Source: Antrihabitans stalagmiti (GTDB lineage: Bacteria > Actinomycetota > Actinomycetes > Mycobacteriales > Mycobacteriaceae). Taken from it: a DNA stretch of 64,000 bases. A model generated the notes under the pieces. It did no database searches, had not been told where the DNA came from, and worked only from the letters and a program-made list of their open reading frames with translations. Every line of letters begins with the position of its first letter. Position 1 is the stretch's first letter. The translations under genes were made by a program, and so were the position numbers. Below are positions 10,272-17,391 of the stretch, one piece after another. The stretch spans positions 244,921 through 308,920 of the forward strand of contig NZ_JAEMNV010000005.1 in assembly GCF_016482825.1 (NCBI RefSeq), in the 5' to 3' direction.

Positions 10272-10386
10272 TTCGGGTTCCTGTTCTCAGGACCGACCCG
10301 AAGGAAGATTCGCTACCAAGCGAGCCGGTCTGTCGTCCGGCTCGAGGTGGAGGTGTCAGCGTCGCAAAGCGGTTTCGCCGACCGAC
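10272..10386 (-). promoter_or_regulatory. Putative translational attenuator of the DAHP synthase gene
   Basis: Reading the mRNA 5' to 3', five segments can pair in alternating fashion. Segment 1 (10377-10386, inside the leader ORF, GTCGGTCGGC) pairs with segment 2 (10332-10341, GCCGGACGAC) with one mismatch. Segment 2 also belongs to CGAGCCGG (10337-10344), a perfect complement of CCGGCTCG (10321-10328) in segment 3. Segment 3 (10321-10330, GACCGGCTCG) can instead pair over ten bases, two of them G-U, with segment 4 (10291-10300, CGGGTCGGTC). Segment 4 also forms the stem TTCGGGT/ACCCGAA (10296-10302 with 10272-10278), with inner CCTG/CAGG, which hides the AGGA ribosome binding site directly before the ATG. 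Pairings were found by eye. Confidence 0.7.
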
Positions 10387-10430
10387 CCACCAAGGGCCGG
10401 TTCGAGAAACCAAAAATATCCGCGCGACAT
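10356..10430 (-). CDS. Aromatic leader peptide (24 codons) of the DAHP synthase gene
   Basis: ATG at 10430 and TGA ending at 10356 give a 24-residue peptide whose residues 5-8 are Tyr-Phe-Trp-Phe, all three aromatic amino acids in a row. This composition is characteristic of attenuator leader peptides that sense charged tRNA. No Shine-Dalgarno sequence precedes it. A TACAGT hexamer seven bases upstream could be a -10 element placing the transcript start at the ATG, i.e. leaderless translation, which is common in actinomycetes. Segments after the aromatic codons can pair with downstream RNA. Not long enough to appear in usual gene predictions. Confidence 0.8.
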   Translation of the reverse strand: MSRGYFWFLEPALGGSVGETALRR

Positions 10431-10437
10431 AAATTGG

Positions 10438-10470
10438 ACTGTACCAGCCGACACATCGGGAGTGTGTCGG
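10438..10470 (-). promoter_or_regulatory. Candidate promoter and operator of the DAHP synthase leader
   Basis: TACAGT (reverse strand, 10438-10443) fits a TAnnnT -10 hexamer seven bases before the leader ATG. Just upstream is a dyad of 7-base arms, CCGACAC (10448-10454) and GTGTCGG (10464-10470). It lies where the -10/-35 spacer would be, so it could bind a repressor. Both are by-eye assignments. Confidence 0.4.
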
Positions 10471-11022: not shown

Positions 11023-11445
11023 ATGGCAATCCTGTACACCGCAGAAGCGCTCGCAACCGGCGACGGCCGCAACGGCCACGCCCGCACCACCGACGGCAAG
11101 GTCGACGTCGCCCTGTCCGCACCGAAGGAAATGGGCGGCAACGGCGAAGGCACCAACCCGGAGCAGTTGTTCGCGGCAGGCTACGCAGCATGCTTCCACG
11201 GCGCGCTCCGCTTGGTCGGCGGTCGTGAGAAGGCGAACATCGCGGATTCGGCAGTCGGCGCGAAAGTTGGCATCGGCCCCAATGATTCGGGCGGCTTCGG
11301 GCTCGAAGTAACCCTCGAAATCTCACTGCCCCACCTGTCGAAGGACGAGGCACAGGCACTCGCCGACAAGGCACACCAGGTGTGCCCGTACTCGAACGCC
11401 ACCCGCGGCAACATCCCCGTCACCGTGACGGTTGCCGAAGACTGA
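11023..11445 (+). CDS. ohr: Ohr, organic hydroperoxide resistance peroxidase (OsmC family)
   Basis: A 140-residue OsmC/Ohr protein. The catalytic cysteines are C57 (YAACFHGAL) and C121 (HQVCPYSNATR), with GTNPEQLFAAGYAA as the family signature. It reduces organic hydroperoxides to alcohols using dihydrolipoyl cofactors in the cytoplasm. GGAAGAGGAAAG lies just upstream of the ATG. It follows ohrR on the same strand and should be derepressed with it. Confidence 0.95.
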   Translation: MAILYTAEALATGDGRNGHARTTDGKVDVALSAPKEMGGNGEGTNPEQLFAAGYAACFHGALRLVGGREKANIADSAVGAKVGIGPNDSGGFGLEVTLEISLPHLSKDEAQALADKAHQVCPYSNATRGNIPVTVTVAED

Positions 11446-11578
11446 TTCACGCTTTTCTCCGACACGCGCGGCGACCGCTTCGTCTTGCTCGATCCGACGA
11501 AGGTACGGTCGCCGCGCTTGTATCGTCACCAGTGGCACATACCGGCAACCACCGAGCTGACGTCGCTGAGGAGTTCTT

Positions 11579-12571
11579 TTGGGTACCCGCGTACCAGGAT
11601 CGCGTGTTCTGCGACTGCTCGGCGTTGTACTCGCTGCACTGTTGCTTGTGCTGGCTACCGCGTGCGACACGCATTCGAGCGACGGTGGTTCCGACGCGGA
11701 CGGCAACTCCGACCGCACCGTCACGATCGGGCACTCCAAAGGCAAGACCAGCGTCAACGGCATTCCGAAGAAGATCGTGACGCTCGGGACCCAATGGCTC
11801 GACGCTGCACAGGTTCTCGGTGTGACTCCGATCGGCTATATCGACAACGTGGGCAGAGCGGCCGGTGCAACCAACTCGCCGTGGGAGCCTCCTTCGCTGC
11901 AAAGTGCGACAGCGATCGATCCAGCAGGCGACGTGGTCGCCCAGGTCGAGGCTCTCGATCCCGATCTGATCCTCGTCACCAGGTTCGGCCCCGACGAGTA
12001 CGACAAGCTGAGCAATATCGCGCCGACCATCCCCGAACTTCGGAGCTCCGAGGTGGACTCGTGGGGCGAGCAGATCGATATTCTCGGCAAGATCCTCGAC
12101 AAGCAGGGCCAAGCCGCGTCGGTCGCGGCGAACATCAACGGCCGCATCGACGCGATTGCCGCGAAGAACCCAGGACTGAAAGGCAAAACCTTCGTCACGA
12201 CGTTCCTGTCGTCGCCAACGCGGATGGATGTTCTCGCGGACCCGCAAGACGGCGCGAGCGTCCTGTTCACCCGGCTCGGCATGACGCTGCCCGAAAAGCT
12301 TGTCACCCAAGTCGGCCCGACGGGTCGCGCAGCGTTGCCACCCGAACGACTCGTCGACCTGAACACCGACCTGCTCGTCGCCACGTCGACCCCTGAGATG
12401 ACCGACCTCTTCAAGGCTCTACCTGGGTACGACACACTGCCTTCGGTCCAGAAGGACAGCATCGTCTACCTCGACGTCGCCGCCGGAACAGGACTCAATC
12501 AGCCTTCGCCGCTGTCGATTCCGTACGTCCTCGATCGTCTCGAAGCCGGCCTGGCCAACGCCGCCAAATAG
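11579..12571 (+). CDS. Iron-siderophore ABC transporter substrate-binding lipoprotein
   Basis: A 330-residue periplasmic-binding protein of the FecB/FepB type. The N-terminus has Arg residues, a hydrophobic core and a lipobox ending VLATAC, giving a lipid-anchored protein. The mature part shows IPKKIVTLGTQWLDAAQVLGVTPIG and a late IVYLDVAAGTGLN, the usual two-lobe type III layout without interdomain hinge strands. It probably binds the ferric form of the siderophore made by the neighbouring genes; no permease or ATPase is adjacent. The TTG start at 11579 follows GAGGAG by a good distance. It ends one base before the convergent N-hydroxylase gene. Confidence 0.88.
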   Translation: MGTRVPGSRVLRLLGVVLAALLLVLATACDTHSSDGGSDADGNSDRTVTIGHSKGKTSVNGIPKKIVTLGTQWLDAAQVLGVTPIGYIDNVGRAAGATNSPWEPPSLQSATAIDPAGDVVAQVEALDPDLILVTRFGPDEYDKLSNIAPTIPELRSSEVDSWGEQIDILGKILDKQGQAASVAANINGRIDAIAAKNPGLKGKTFVTTFLSSPTRMDVLADPQDGASVLFTRLGMTLPEKLVTQVGPTGRAALPPERLVDLNTDLLVATSTPEMTDLFKALPGYDTLPSVQKDSIVYLDVAAGTGLNQPSPLSIPYVLDRLEAGLANAAK

Positions 12572-13861
12572 TCAGGCGTCACGCAGCGCCCGCGCTGCTT
12601 TTCGCGAGCGCGTCGACCCTTCGACGACATCGCTGCGTAGCACTCGGTCCGACAACATGCCGAGGCAACTCAAATTCGGAAAACCCGGACCTTGGGACAC
12701 ACCGGCGAGGTTCGGCAGGAACAACTTCGGCGTCATGGACTCGACGGCAAGGTCGTAGCCGATGGACGCCTCGATGCGCTCCTGGGTGATCTCGCTGCCG
12801 ACCGACAGTTCGAGTACATCGGCGGCGTCCTGATCCATGAGGTCGACGAACCACAGCGGCTGACCGCCGGTGGCGTCGACCACCAGATCGAAGGTGTGCG
12901 TGCGATCGCCACGCGTGCCGTTGTTCAACGTCAACGCGAGCAGGTCGCCGTCGGACTTCGCGCGCACGACTCGGCCCTGCAAATGCGAGACCCTGTTGTC
13001 GCCGAGCAGCGTTTCCTGAACGCGGACCGAGAAGACTCCCCGATCGGTCCGGCGGATGACGTCTCGTTTCTCCTCGTTGGTGAGCGCGATCCACTTCGTC
13101 GGATCGCTGTACAGCGAGTTCTCGAAATAGCTTTCGCCACGGGTGTAGAGCGTTGCCATCGGTGAGACGACCGAGATGCTCATCGCGTCGTGCCGTGCGA
13201 GTTCGTCGAGCACCGAACCTGCGGTTTCACCGCCACCGATGACGGCTGCGCGCGACGAGAGGGGCAGTTGCCTGCGACCCGCCAGATCCCAGAACTCCGC
13301 CACGCTGAGCATCCGAGGATGTTTGTAGAGTGCGCTTTTGCTGCTGCCGGGACCGGTGATCATCAGCGCATCACCCTCGCACTGGATGGTCTGTCCGTTG
13401 GGTCCCTCGACGGTGAGCGACCATTCACCGGTGTCGCACGACATCGACCGGACCGATCCGACGATCAACTCCAGCTGAGCCTTCTTCGCAACCCACTGCA
13501 GGTATTTGGCCCACATGTGATGCTGCGGACTCGGTCGGCCGCGGTCGATCCATTCGGTGAAGCCGCCGTGATCGACGAGAAAGGACGTCCAGCTGAACGT
13601 CAGCATCTTCTCGTTGATCTCACGGTTGTGGCCCTGAACGAGATTCGAGCGGTACGGGAACCCGATGTCCTTCTCCGGGCTCGTGCCGAGGCGATGGTTG
13701 CCGTCGGTCCAGCCGCCGCCTGGCAGCCAGTTACCGCCGACCGCGTGCTGCTCGATCGCGACCACACGTGGCGCGGGGTAGCCGAGCTCTTTGAGAACCG
13801 ACGCCTTCGCGGCTACCGCAAGCGCTTTCGGTCCGGCACCGACGACGAGAAGGGTATCCAT
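12572..13861 (-). CDS. Lysine/ornithine N-monooxygenase for siderophore synthesis (MbtG-like)
   Basis: A 429-residue flavin-dependent N-hydroxylase. The FAD site is VVGAGPKALAVAAKA at the N-terminus; IEQHAVGGNWLPGGGWTDG follows; the NADPH-site region is VIGGGETAGSVLDEL. FPNLSCLGMLSDRV lies near the C-terminus. Length and motifs match mycobacterial MbtG, which hydroxylates the epsilon-amino group of lysine residues in mycobactin. The alternative, ornithine delta-hydroxylation, cannot be excluded. Its ATG shares one base with the TGA of the NRPS (TGATG), so translation is likely coupled. Confidence 0.88.
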   Translation of the reverse strand: MDTLLVVGAGPKALAVAAKASVLKELGYPAPRVVAIEQHAVGGNWLPGGGWTDGNHRLGTSPEKDIGFPYRSNLVQGHNREINEKMLTFSWTSFLVDHGGFTEWIDRGRPSPQHHMWAKYLQWVAKKAQLELIVGSVRSMSCDTGEWSLTVEGPNGQTIQCEGDALMITGPGSSKSALYKHPRMLSVAEFWDLAGRRQLPLSSRAAVIGGGETAGSVLDELARHDAMSISVVSPMATLYTRGESYFENSLYSDPTKWIALTNEEKRDVIRRTDRGVFSVRVQETLLGDNRVSHLQGRVVRAKSDGDLLALTLNNGTRGDRTHTFDLVVDATGGQPLWFVDLMDQDAADVLELSVGSEITQERIEASIGYDLAVESMTPKLFLPNLAGVSQGPGFPNLSCLGMLSDRVLRSDVVEGSTRSRKAARALRDA

Positions 13862-16800
13862 CACCGCTGCCCGCCTGCCGCGTCGGCGGTTTCCAGTTGG
13901 TGGGTGTCCATGGCCGCGATCTCGGCATAGATCTGCGCGACCTGTTCGAGTCTCGTTGCGCTTTCCCCTGCCGCCACGTCGCTCGCGATCAGTCGGGTTG
14001 CCAGCGCCGCAACCGTTCGCGCGGCGAAGATGTCCGACACGACGGCGTTCGATGCATCGAGCCAATCCCGGATCCGCGCAATGAGAGTCGTCGCAAGGAC
14101 GGAGTCGCCGCCGAGTGCGAAGAAGTCGTCGTCGACACCGACCTTCGTCCCGCCGAGCACCTCGCCGACGATTGCTGCGAGCGCACGCTCCAGCTCGGTT
14201 CGTGGGGCGACAAAGCCGTTCGCATCGTCCTCGGCGGTGAAGAGTGCCGTGACCGCTCGGCGGTCGAGCTTGCCGTTCGATGTCAAAGGGAAAACGTCGA
14301 GAATCTCGATGCGGCCGGGAATCATGTAGCGCGGCAGCAGATCTCCGAGTGCTGCCTGGATCTCGTCCGACGTGAGCGACCCGTCCGTGGTCACCGCCGC
14401 TGCCAGCTTCGGCGCAGCCTTACCGACGACGACCGCGACGGCAAGGCCGACCCCGTCGATGGACCGCAGCGCACCTTCGATCTCGCCGAGTTCGATCCGG
14501 TAGCCCCGAATCTTGACCTGATGGTCCGCGCGTCCGAGGAATTCGAGGGTGCCGTCCGGGAGGTATCTGGCGAGATCTCCTGTGCGATACCAGTTCTGAC
14601 CCTGATGGGTGAGAAACTTCGCTGCCGAGCGTTCCGGATCGTTGCGATATCCGAGCGCGACACCCGAACCACCGACCCACAGTTCACCCGCGACCCAGTC
14701 AGGACAGTCGTGGCCGGTCGGCCCGACGACGCGGCAGGCAACGTTGTCGAGCGGAGTACCGAACGGCACCGCGATCCAGTGCGGATCGACCCCGGCAGCG
14801 CCGGCAACCTCACAGACCGAGAAATGAATGGCCGTCTCCGTCGCACCACCCAGACCGGCGAACCTGCAGGTAGGCACCTGCTGCTCCAACCGGCCCGGCA
14901 GATCGACGCCGACCCAGTCGCCGCCGAGCAGCACCGCACGAAGCGAATCGCCGAGTCCGCGTCCGGGTCCGGCACTGCTGCCGACCGTCAGCAGCATGTC
15001 CAGCATGCTGGGTACGCAGTTGAGGATGCTGACGCGATACCGATTGACGAGAGCGACCCACTCGTAGGGGTTTTCGCGCGTCGCCTCGTCCATCGCGACG
15101 ACGGCACCACCCGCCGACAGCAATCCGAAGATGTCGTAGACCGAAGCATCGAACTCGAGGGCCGCCAGTTCGAGTGACCGATCGGCCGGGCCGACGTCGA
15201 AGCGGCGGTTGCAGTCGTCGATCGTGTTCATCGCCGCACGGTGCGGGACGTCCACACCCTTGGGAGTGCCCGTGGACCCCGACGTGAACAACACGTAGGC
15301 GACGCTCTCGGTGTCGGGAACTACCGGTTTCGCCAACGGCTCCGGATATGTCACCGCAGTCGCGAGCGGGAGCGCCGGAATGCCGACGCCACGGAACTGT
15401 TCACTGTCCTGACAGATGGCCGCGATGACGCGACCCGTTTCGAGTATCTGGGTCCGTCGCGCGATGGGCTGGTCGAAACCGATCGGAACGTAGGCCGCAC
15501 CTGCGGCGAGCACGCCGAGTACCGCGACGATCTGCCCGGGACCTTTCGGCACCTGCACCGCAACAGCATCGCCGACGCCGACACCGTCGGCCTGCAATGC
15601 GCCTGCGATTGCGAGCGCTTCGGCAGCGAGGGCTCCGTAGGTCTTTCCGCCGGTCTCGCCCCACAGCAGCGCGGGCGCATCGGGATTCGCCGCAGCGTTG
15701 GCGAAGAAGCCTTCGTGCAGTGCTCGTCCGGTTACCGGTGCCGCCGTGTCGTTGACCCGACGCCTGACCGCGAACTGATCGAGCGGCAACGACGGGGTCG
15801 CTTGCGCGGTCCACCCGGCAGCACCGTTCGCGAGCCGATCGATCGCGGTTGTGTACTGCGCGAACATCGAGTCGACAACACCTGTGGGGAAGGCGGATTC
15901 GCGAACGTCCCAGTTGAGCAGCAGCCCACCGCGGACCTCCGTCACCTGCGCATCGAGCAGCACCTGGGGACCCTGCGACACGATCCAGACCGGCTCACCG
16001 AAAGTGTCGGCGACCGAATCCGCGAACAGCTCACCGAGATTCAGCGCACTGGTGTAGACGATCGGAGCGAGCACCTGTTCGCCGCGATGTCTGCCGAGAT
16101 CCCGCAATACGTCGAGGCCTGAGTAGGCAGCGTGGGAACCGTTGGTATGCATCGTCTTCTGCAGTTCGCGGGCCCGCTCGAGCACACTGCATTCGGCGGA
16201 AACATCGACGTCGACCATGATCGACGAGGTGAAGTCGCCGACGATTCTGTCGACATCGGGATGCAGCGACTCACGTTGGAAGAGTGGAAGATTGAGCAGG
16301 AATCGCGGTTCGGCAGACCAGCGACCGATCGTTTCGGCGAAGACCGATGCCAGCGCCATCGCGGGTGTGACGCCGCGATCGTGCGCTGCGGCCAACAGGG
16401 CATGCTTGGCCTCGGGAGCGAGCCAATGGTGATAGCGAACAGTTTTGTTCGGGTCGGTCCGGTCGGCCTCGGGGACGACGGGAAGCGCAGGCGCGGCAGG
16501 AAGTTCGGCCAGCCTGCTCTGCCACCACCGCCTGTCCCGTTCGCGGGCGGGCGCGGGCTTTTCGGCCTTGGCGGCGAGGTACTGCCGATAGGTATAGGCG
16601 CTTGCCGCTACCTTTCGTCCGGCGTACAGCTCTGCGAGGTCGGCAACGAGCAACCGGTAGCTCATCGCATCGGCGGCAAGCATGTCGACGTCGAGATGCA
16701 GGCGCGTCTTGCCGTCCGGGAGCAGGGTGAGCGTCACATCGAGCACCTGGCCGTCCTCGACGGCGAGCCGTTGATGCGACTTCTCCTCGCGCAGCTCCGC

Positions 16801-17391
16801 GAGCTGCGCAGCCACCTCGTCGGCTGCGAGGTCGCGCAGATCGACGACGGCGAACACGGGTCGACCGGGCACCGCGAGGATCTGTTGCGTGCCGTTGGGA
16901 AGGAACTGAGCCCGCAGCATCGGATGGAGTGCGACCAACTCGGATACCGCTCGCTCCAAGGCAGCCGCGTCCACACCGCCGCCGTCGAACTCGACGTAGA
17001 GATGGGCGGCCACACCACCGAGCGCTTGGCTGTCGGTTCTGCCGATCCAGAAGGCGTGTTGCATCTGCGCCAGCGCGAACGGCTCGGCGTCGGCTTCGGG
17101 GGCGACGACCGGCTCGACCGCTTCCGGCTCGCTCACCGGTTCGGCTACGTCACCGGCAAGAAGTGCGTACCACGCATCGACAGTCGGTGCGGCCGCGAGC
17201 TGGGCAAAGTTGACGTCGAGCCCACGCTTACGCCACCCACCTGCGAGTTTCATCATGCGGATCGAGTCGAGCCCGAGCTGGATGAGGTCGTCCGCCGTGG
17301 CGATGGTGTGCGCCGGTTCGCCGAGTTGCTTGGCGACCTCGTCGCGAATGCTTTCTCGATCGATCCCGGCTCTGCCTGATTCAGCCACCAC
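13861..17391 (-). CDS. Siderophore NRPS, ArCP-Cy-A-PCP (MbtB-like, without thioesterase)
   Basis: A 1176-residue synthetase. Domain order: aryl carrier protein with phosphopantetheine serine at about S43 (LGLDSIRMM); heterocyclisation (Cy) domain from about 105 to 520 with the D236-x4-D241 motif; adenylation domain from about 545 to 1050 ([30 protein letters not shown], then GRADHQVKIRGYRIE); peptidyl carrier with S1097 (LGGDSVLAT). This matches MbtB-type enzymes that join salicylate to serine, threonine or cysteine and cyclise it to an oxazoline or thiazoline. Mycobacterial MbtB carries a further thioesterase domain, which is absent here. GTG or ATG start; upstream an iron box is shared with mbtA. 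Confidence 0.93.
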   Translation of the reverse strand: MVAESGRAGIDRESIRDEVAKQLGEPAHTIATADDLIQLGLDSIRMMKLAGGWRKRGLDVNFAQLAAAPTVDAWYALLAGDVAEPVSEPEAVEPVVAPEADAEPFALAQMQHAFWIGRTDSQALGGVAAHLYVEFDGGGVDAAALERAVSELVALHPMLRAQFLPNGTQQILAVPGRPVFAVVDLRDLAADEVAAQLAELREEKSHQRLAVEDGQVLDVTLTLLPDGKTRLHLDVDMLAADAMSYRLLVADLAELYAGRKVAASAYTYRQYLAAKAEKPAPARERDRRWWQSRLAELPAAPALPVVPEADRTDPNKTVRYHHWLAPEAKHALLAAAHDRGVTPAMALASVFAETIGRWSAEPRFLLNLPLFQRESLHPDVDRIVGDFTSSIMVDVDVSAECSVLERARELQKTMHTNGSHAAYSGLDVLRDLGRHRGEQVLAPIVYTSALNLGELFADSVADTFGEPVWIVSQGPQVLLDAQVTEVRGGLLLNWDVRESAFPTGVVDSMFAQYTTAIDRLANGAAGWTAQATPSLPLDQFAVRRRVNDTAAPVTGRALHEGFFANAAANPDAPALLWGETGGKTYGALAAEALAIAGALQADGVGVGDAVAVQVPKGPGQIVAVLGVLAAGAAYVPIGFDQPIARRTQILETGRVIAAICQDSEQFRGVGIPALPLATAVTYPEPLAKPVVPDTESVAYVLFTSGSTGTPKGVDVPHRAAMNTIDDCNRRFDVGPADRSLELAALEFDASVYDIFGLLSAGGAVVAMDEATRENPYEWVALVNRYRVSILNCVPSMLDMLLTVGSSAGPGRGLGDSLRAVLLGGDWVGVDLPGRLEQQVPTCRFAGLGGATETAIHFSVCEVAGAAGVDPHWIAVPFGTPLDNVACRVVGPTGHDCPDWVAGELWVGGSGVALGYRNDPERSAAKFLTHQGQNWYRTGDLARYLPDGTLEFLGRADHQVKIRGYRIELGEIEGALRSIDGVGLAVAVVVGKAAPKLAAAVTTDGSLTSDEIQAALGDLLPRYMIPGRIEILDVFPLTSNGKLDRRAVTALFTAEDDANGFVAPRTELERALAAIVGEVLGGTKVGVDDDFFALGGDSVLATTLIARIRDWLDASNAVVSDIFAARTVAALATRLIASDVAAGESATRLEQVAQIYAEIAAMDTHQLETADAAGGQR

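Follow-up and report, generated by a model that had tools for sequence, protein, structure and literature searches.

The question raised by this locus is whether the DNA upstream of a class I 3-deoxy-7-phosphoheptulonate (DAHP) synthase gene of Antrihabitans stalagmiti encodes a switch, what such a switch might sense, and at which step of expression it might act. The gene lies in the window, the whole 64,000-nucleotide stretch of DNA that was analysed, and is preceded by a short ORF with four aromatic codons in a row and by RNA segments that could pair in alternative ways (Table 1). We think it likely that this region is a leader-peptide attenuator that controls the class I DAHP synthase mainly at the level of translation. 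The gene product scores 486 bits against TIGR00034 (aroFGH, NCBIfam), for which the cut-off is 173. In its own genome (G000, 6.39 Mb) the protein has a single match, and one class II DAHP synthase is encoded at another locus. The leader stop codon and the DAHP synthase ATG (10271) are separated by 84 nt.

Table 1. Features of the leader region and its gene, by position in the window
Feature	Position	Strand	Basis
-10 box TACAGT, TG at 10446-10445	10438..10443	(-)	sequence; 7 nt before leader ATG
Leader ORF, MSRGYFWFLEPALGGSVGETALRR plus stop, 24 codons	10356..10430	(-)	ATG at 10430, TGA 10358-10356
Regulatory codons TAT TTT TGG TTT (Tyr-Phe-Trp-Phe, codons 5-8)	10407..10418	(-)	sequence and codon counts
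Hairpin within ORF, CCGGCCC with GGGUCGG (10400-10394 with 10388-10382)	10382..10400	(-)	96.3% of cells paired, 61 loci
Segment 1, GGCCCUUGGUGG, directly 3' of regulatory codons	10387..10398	(-)	pairing with segment 2, swap test in 106 loci
Segment 2, CCACCUCGAGCCGG, partner of 1 or 3	10337..10350	(-)	pairing fractions
Segment 3, GACCGGCUCG, partner of 2 or 4	10321..10330	(-)	2:3 paired in 95.3% of cells
Segment 4, UUCGGGUCGGUC, partner of 3 or 5	10291..10302	(-)	alignment, folds, swap test
Segment 5, CAGGAACCCGAA, Shine-Dalgarno AGGAA 10282-10278, adjoins DAHP synthase ATG	10272..10283	(-)	4:5 swap test
Class I DAHP synthase, 364 aa	9177..10271	(-)	PF00793, E 1.4e-85

A sequence-only reading of the window had proposed a 24-codon ORF with Tyr-Phe-Trp-Phe at codons 5-8, and direct reading of the sequence gives the same ORF. 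When the 257 nt upstream of the gene were subjected to 5000 dinucleotide shuffles, an ORF with at least four consecutive aromatic residues arose in 10 and one with at least three in 145. On comparative grounds, the strongest sign that the leader reflects more than chance is its recurrence: among the matches listed, it stands in 102 of the 103 loci whose DAHP synthases are nearest, which comprise 96 distinct sequences, and recurs as MQRAYFWFSRPAPGGSV and variants. The sole exception, L005, is the second DAHP synthase copy in genome G001, in which the other copy (L003) has the leader. Antrihabitans stalactiti (L006) has a leader-to-gene sequence identical to that of L002 from G003, one of the four genomes that represent the window's genus in the search set. 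The leader ORF and the pairings, whose lack in relatives the sequence-only reading had named as a ground for refutation, are both conserved.

Codon choice is kept along with the residues. Across 48 deduplicated loci with YFWF leaders, Tyr is encoded by TAT in all 48 and the last Phe by TTT in 46, whereas TAT and TTT account for 21% and 14% of codon use in the window's long ORFs. Rare codons thus appear to be maintained at the regulatory positions, which we count in favour of the proposed attenuator.

Leaders extend beyond the nearest loci. Loci L006-L085, the best 80 out of 591 that were confirmed, do not form a random sample; a further 60 loci were fetched among the matches listed, besides 30 loci. 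An aromatic leader was found by pattern in 36 of 40 more distant loci of the family, plus L238 by eye, and in 22 of 40 loci sampled from the class, plus three by eye; L222 was masked in these counts, and the leaders of L209, L215, L219 and L238 were seen by eye and not caught by the pattern. No leader was found by pattern in 14 of the 40 class-sample loci, all of family f18, and none was found in L240-L242 either. As to a second YFWF leader in the window's own genome, three of the four other sites that fit the pattern look internal to protein genes, and the fourth (L254) has no suitable leader start.

We then considered where the transcript begins. The window has the promoter-like sequence TG-G-TACAGT at 10446-10438, whose -10 box (10443-10438) the sequence-only reading had overlooked; no sigma-70 consensus pair was called at this promoter. 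Counting one per locus, all 106 deduplicated actinobacterial loci have a TANNNT that ends 6-8 nt upstream of an in-frame ATG or GTG, with spacings of 6, 7 and 8 nt in 8, 90 and 8 loci, respectively, and at most 9 loci at each other spacing from 0 to 24. The spacing test was anchored on the aromatic codons, and the ORFs had been pre-picked in a way that favours such a box, so some bias is left in these counts. Because the conserved -10 box is so close to the leader start, at 6-8 nt, the mRNA is probably leaderless, with the transcript beginning at the leader ATG itself. Actinobacteria are known to have leaderless leader peptides (PMC8079986 and PMC5784534, excerpts of both). A transcript start downstream of the ORF, which the sequence-only reading had raised against itself, is not indicated: the conserved -10 box points to a probable start at the leader ATG.

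Other features surround the locus. On the far side of the leader promoter lies a divergent MarR-family gene (PF01047), and an inverted repeat, CCGACACA-N7-TGTGTCGG, occupies 10448-10470, directly upstream of the leader -10 box and before the MarR-family gene. This repeat is a possible operator; none was seen by eye in the 40 nt upstream of related leaders. Near the DAHP synthase, 11023-17391 includes an OsmC-like gene (PF02566) and one for a periplasmic binding protein (PF01497), together with a long ORF resembling one for a non-ribosomal peptide synthetase; this is possibly a siderophore region.

Four successive pairings had been proposed between the leader and the gene, and the fractions of paired cells given here refer to alignment A1, which comprises 61 loci of type 1, the type of the window. 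Pairing 2:3 stands as described, with 8 of 8 pairs in the window and 95.3% of cells paired. Pairing 4:5 also holds: it has 7 pairs, and 4 more bury the Shine-Dalgarno AGGAA; it covaries within the window's type. Pairings 1:2 and 2:3 exclude each other, as had been claimed. A 1:2 helix exists, but in another register than the one first given (10377-10386 with 10332-10341). The register GGC..C..GGUGG (10398-10387) with CCACC..G.GCC (10350-10339) is paired in 94.3% of cells, versus 73.6% for the earlier one, which forms 9 of 10 pairs in the window and is 10.5 kcal/mol worse when the ON state is forced with a ribosome that holds the Trp codon in its A site; we retain it as an alternative only. Pairing 3:4 has 10 of 10 pairs in the window, G-U included, and 86.7% of cells paired, but lacks covariation and is unproven. 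The ORF-internal hairpin had been missed altogether; it is also present in the window's minimum-energy fold.

Several properties of the RNA bear on these pairings as a set. The leader RNA folds more stably than its shuffles by 4.46 sd, none of 200 being as good, and the arrangement GAGCCGG-N3-10-CCGGCTC occurs at one site in the window's own genome. Inside the window's type, pairing changes are mainly from G-C to G-U (61 loci), with clear covariation in none of 1:2, 2:3, 3:4 and the ORF hairpin, and sliding the partners by 1-3 columns lowers each structure to about half or less. C10295 and G10293 of segment 4 are invariant in the 61 loci although they are unpaired in 4:5, an invariance that speaks in favour of 3:4.

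Covariation in relatives, the check that the sequence-only reading had suggested, was found for 4:5 within the window's type and for 1:2 in the wider family, and was not found for 3:4 or for 1:2 within the window's own type. In swap tests, which set native partners against permuted ones, 4:5 scored -7.96 natively versus -6.16 when permuted in the window's type (49 of 54 type-1 loci taken in; 0 of 10,000 permutations as good, relatedness uncorrected). Its compensatory versions are UUCGGGU with ACCCGAA in the window and CGUGGG with CCCACG or UGCGGG with CCCGCA elsewhere. For 1:2, native partners scored -25.86 versus -23.51 over 106 loci, and -29.80 versus -25.59 over the 53 loci without YFWF or YWF (0 of 5000 as good in each, both uncorrected for relatedness); within YFWF and YWF leaders alone, 692 of 5000 permutations were as good and no covariation was found. 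The wider family carries complementary 1:2 versions such as GGCUCUGGGUGG with CCACCCAGAGCC, GGCUCCAGG with CCUGGAGCC, and GGCUCCGGAUGG with CAUCCGGAGCC. Within the window's type, 2:3 displays invariance and G-U changes without covariation; in the 52 loci of other types it scored -15.56 versus -13.91 (0 of 10,000, relatedness uncorrected). For 3:4 in the window's type, 8656 of 10,000 permutations were as good. Comparison of sequences thus supports the ORF, its codons, the -10 spacing, 1:2 across the wider family and 4:5, and by such comparative evidence the leader is a real, conserved attenuator, of a kind already known.

The sequence-only reading had also held that the logic of the switch closes. 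At equilibrium it fails: with both states forced, OFF beats ON in the window by 9.3-11.6 kcal/mol across three ribosome states, and in all eight ribosome states that were folded 4:5 is preferred and the Shine-Dalgarno is 0.01-0.02 unpaired. Equilibrium folds of 47 loci are dominated by 2:3 (mean 0.83-0.96) and hardly form 3:4 (0.02-0.05). When segment 2 is blocked, 3:4 rises above 0.5 in 8 of the 45 loci used (out of 53), and not in the window. We rejected an equilibrium switch on the OFF preference and on these 8 of 45 loci.

As an order of events, the same logic works in stepwise folds along transcription, in all 49 loci used (out of 53). When the RNA has been made as far as segment 2, a ribosome whose A site holds the Trp codon lets 1:2 pass 0.5 in all 49 loci (0.68 in the window), whereas a ribosome that has reached the stop codon does so in none. 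With RNA ending before the Shine-Dalgarno, 3:4 exceeds 0.5 in all 49 when segment 2 is blocked (0.99 in the window), versus 3 of 49 when segment 2 is free. It counts against the relay that 1:2 passes 0.5 in just 9 of 49 loci when the A site holds the last Phe codon (window 0.47), and in 29 of 49 when the leader is free of ribosomes (window 0.05), so that many relatives need no stalled ribosome for 1:2. Because OFF is favoured at equilibrium and the relay works stepwise, any switch must be kinetic, and to be plausible the modelled relay would have to act before segment 5 displaces 3:4.

These considerations lead to the following scheme, which agrees in outline with that of the sequence-only reading. 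Transcription would start at the leader ATG, and ribosomes would enter at the 5' end independently of a Shine-Dalgarno. When charged Tyr-, Phe- or Trp-tRNA is scarce, a ribosome would stall at codons 5-8, and segment 1, just ahead of it, would pair with segment 2 as the latter exits the polymerase; segment 3, left free, would then capture segment 4 ahead of the synthesis of segment 5, so that the Shine-Dalgarno of the DAHP synthase gene would stay open. When charged tRNAs are plentiful, the ribosome would reach the stop codon, covering segment 1 and the front of segment 2, and 2:3 followed by 4:5 would form and close the Shine-Dalgarno. Within this scheme, we infer the stalling, the 3:4 step, translation as the output and the identity of the sensed amino acids. 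All three aromatic amino acids may be sensed; for Corynebacterium glutamicum, a review describes an effect of Phe limitation and none of Tyr (PMC11802643, excerpt).

In the window there is no T-run after 2:3, and no rho-independent terminator was found between leader and gene. A helix over the ribosome binding site with compensatory change is the mark of a translational attenuator, and 4:5 is such a helix (49 loci). From the covarying Shine-Dalgarno helix together with the missing terminator we infer translation as the output in the window, in line with the sequence-only reading, which had likewise placed the output on translation; translation is the most likely output.

The same sensor might instead act on transcription, with the 2:3 hairpin ending or stalling transcription, perhaps with Rho, and 4:5 being secondary, and we regard this as unlikely. 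It would fit aroR of C. glutamicum, which is reported, citing Neshat 2014, to work by transcription attenuation, with transcription stronger under Phe limitation and no effect of Tyr (PMC11802643, excerpt), and a weak terminator-like site at 10323-10310 in the window (2 sites in 501 bases versus 0.4 expected). It would fit L106 and L235 as well, where T7 and T6, respectively, directly follow the hairpin. It would also fit the proteobacterial leaders: among named loci that are the best 80 of 591, 33 of 54 non-actinobacterial loci (mostly Proteobacteria) have an aromatic leader by pattern, and a hairpin followed by a T-run is present in 32 of the 32 examined (L068 was left out), in 19 of which the leader can pair with the 5' arm of that hairpin at -12 kcal/mol or better. 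By contrast, the window has no T-run, and a single one follows the hairpin among 52 deduplicated type-1 loci, the T7 of L106, a locus that has the 4:5 helix as well; L115, L140 and L164, also of type 1, have just a short T stretch nearby, and L235 lies outside these 52. Further, the Shine-Dalgarno helix covaries, which a terminator mechanism would not need.

Downstream of segment 2, leaders of the YWRF, WRFYF and YFA types carry a further hairpin, often GGCAGNGAC...GTCNCTGCC; a T-rich stretch follows within 70 nt in 33 of 52 of them, and 24 contain TTTT. This hairpin lies directly after segment 2 in L017, L045, L053, L062, L203-L208 and others and does not overlap the 1:2 helix. It is often followed by a TTTCGTC-like sequence and is conserved beyond the apparent need of a terminator. 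At proteobacterial class I DAHP synthases, leaders such as FYFWYYGF, KFYFYFFW and SFYWYF were seen (L022, L025-L027, L052, L056, L075, L083 and others), and 7 of 32 have a -10-like box at a distance of 6-8 nt upstream of the leader start.

Translation coupling, in which ribosomes that finish the leader ORF reinitiate at the gene or melt 4:5 with no aromatic sensing, strikes us as very unlikely. The leader stop lies 84 nt upstream of the gene, and one report bears the title 'Ribosome reinitiation at leader peptides increases translation of bacterial proteins' (PMC4833913, title), but that gap holds two strong hairpins and varies in length among loci, and other lineages have retained aromatic codons even though their leaders are quite different. 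More doubtful still is an arrest by the nascent peptide, in which YFWF..PALGG would stall the ribosome on binding a free aromatic amino acid. TnaC, which arrests with tryptophan, is the model for such a device, and a P-A-x-G-G stretch is kept in most actinobacterial leaders found. This stretch, however, is encoded by pairing RNA that elsewhere changes together with its partner (GGCUCCGGAUGG/CAUCCGGAGCC, GGCUCCAGG/CCUGGAGCC), and arrest by excess product would open expression when the product is plentiful. Least probable of all is a protein or small molecule that binds conserved RNA with the ORF incidental, because, for all the unusual invariance of segments 2, 3 and 4 and the lack of an Rfam match, two partners per invariant stretch suffice as an explanation and aromatic runs recur where the RNA differs.

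Returning to the attenuator acting mainly on translation, we considered how far it extends beyond the window. Covariance model R1, built from 49 loci (alignment A2 likewise comprises 49), matches 17 of 61 relatives; 15 of these matches lie directly before a DAHP synthase, and the other 2 (E 3e-4 and 4e-4) lie beside other genes. In 296 genomes of the class it gives 16 matches, 7 of them before a class I DAHP synthase. One match, L264 (E 7e-6), lies ahead of a gene for a DAHP synthase/chorismate mutase fusion that belongs to another subfamily. Around 1500-1700 of L264, a leader with the aromatic run YFAF and similar RNA is visible. Eight of the 16 class matches (E 6.9e-4 or worse) were set aside, with no match to the window's DAHP synthase within ~1.5 kb on either side, a neighbourhood test that also missed the divergent L264; the matches L279 and L280 adjoin a gene that reads as elongation factor Ts. 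YWRF-type leaders are poorly matched by R1 (none in G006 and G011, for example), so its misses do not count leaders. Rfam covariance models gave no match up to E 1 in the 2.5 kb around the window's leader, and none at gathering score in 18 related loci.

Taken more broadly, many actinobacterial and proteobacterial class I DAHP synthases may have aromatic leader attenuators, and the Nocardia/Rhodococcus-like lineage would have kept the sensor, a leaderless aromatic ORF with a 1:2/2:3 switch, and exchanged the terminator for a kinetic five-segment Shine-Dalgarno relay, with living intermediates (L106, L235) and with an element that follows the function and not the gene, occurring also before the DAHP synthase/chorismate mutase fusion. 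We put this forward tentatively, at slightly less than even chances. If true, it suggests one attenuator family in which the sensor was kept and the output moved from transcription to translation. It would also give a concrete mechanism for control of the entry into the shikimate pathway in Nocardia, Rhodococcus and relatives, for which a 2005 survey found none, and the relay would serve to test whether a thermodynamically unfavourable RNA state lasts long enough to matter.

The sequence-only reading had called such a device little described in this group. In so far as open-licence text covers the subject, nothing was found on this leader in Rhodococcus, Nocardia or relatives, nor on proteobacterial DAHP synthase leaders of this form, and few aromatic leader attenuators of DAHP synthases are described there so far; the kind itself is known, the C. 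glutamicum aroF leader having been reported in 2013-2014. Related predictions exist outside Actinobacteria: an aroF attenuator is tabulated for Shewanella (PMC2659441, excerpt), and attenuators are predicted before a DAHP synthase-tyrA operon in Vibrio (PMC1173090, excerpt). The survey of Seliverstov 2005, which covered ~20 genomes including Nocardia farcinica, gives no conserved structure before Phe/Tyr operons in the part that we cite (PMC1262725). The LEU element and other actinobacterial leaders in the same survey combine, as described in that part, a leader peptide with RNA that involves the Shine-Dalgarno, as the window does.

The aroR leader of aroF (cg1129) in C. glutamicum, a member of the same order, resembles the window in that an aromatic leader precedes a class I DAHP synthase. 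It is predicted to be an attenuator with Phe-Tyr-Phe (PMC4046766, excerpt), and elsewhere it is called translational control by Phe and Tyr (PMC7356990, excerpt). In a genus that appears to be Corynebacterium (g3), the leaders are QRFYF and WRFYF and the 1:2 helix lies in the same place as in the window, but a hairpin with a T-run follows segment 2, whereas the window has YFWF, a Shine-Dalgarno helix and no such terminator. The polycysteine leaderless short ORFs of mycobacterial cys operons (Canestrari 2020) regulate downstream translation according to a review (PMC9031893, excerpt). They present an actinobacterial leaderless leader ORF whose codons tune downstream expression, as the window probably does; they use cysteine codons before another gene, whereas the window uses aromatic codons. 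The classical trp and phe leader attenuators, E. coli trpL and pheL, end in a rho-independent terminator, whereas the window seems to hide a ribosome binding site. What trpL and pheL share with the mechanism proposed here is the sensing of charged tRNA by translation of a leader and by alternative helices (PMC11802643, excerpt).
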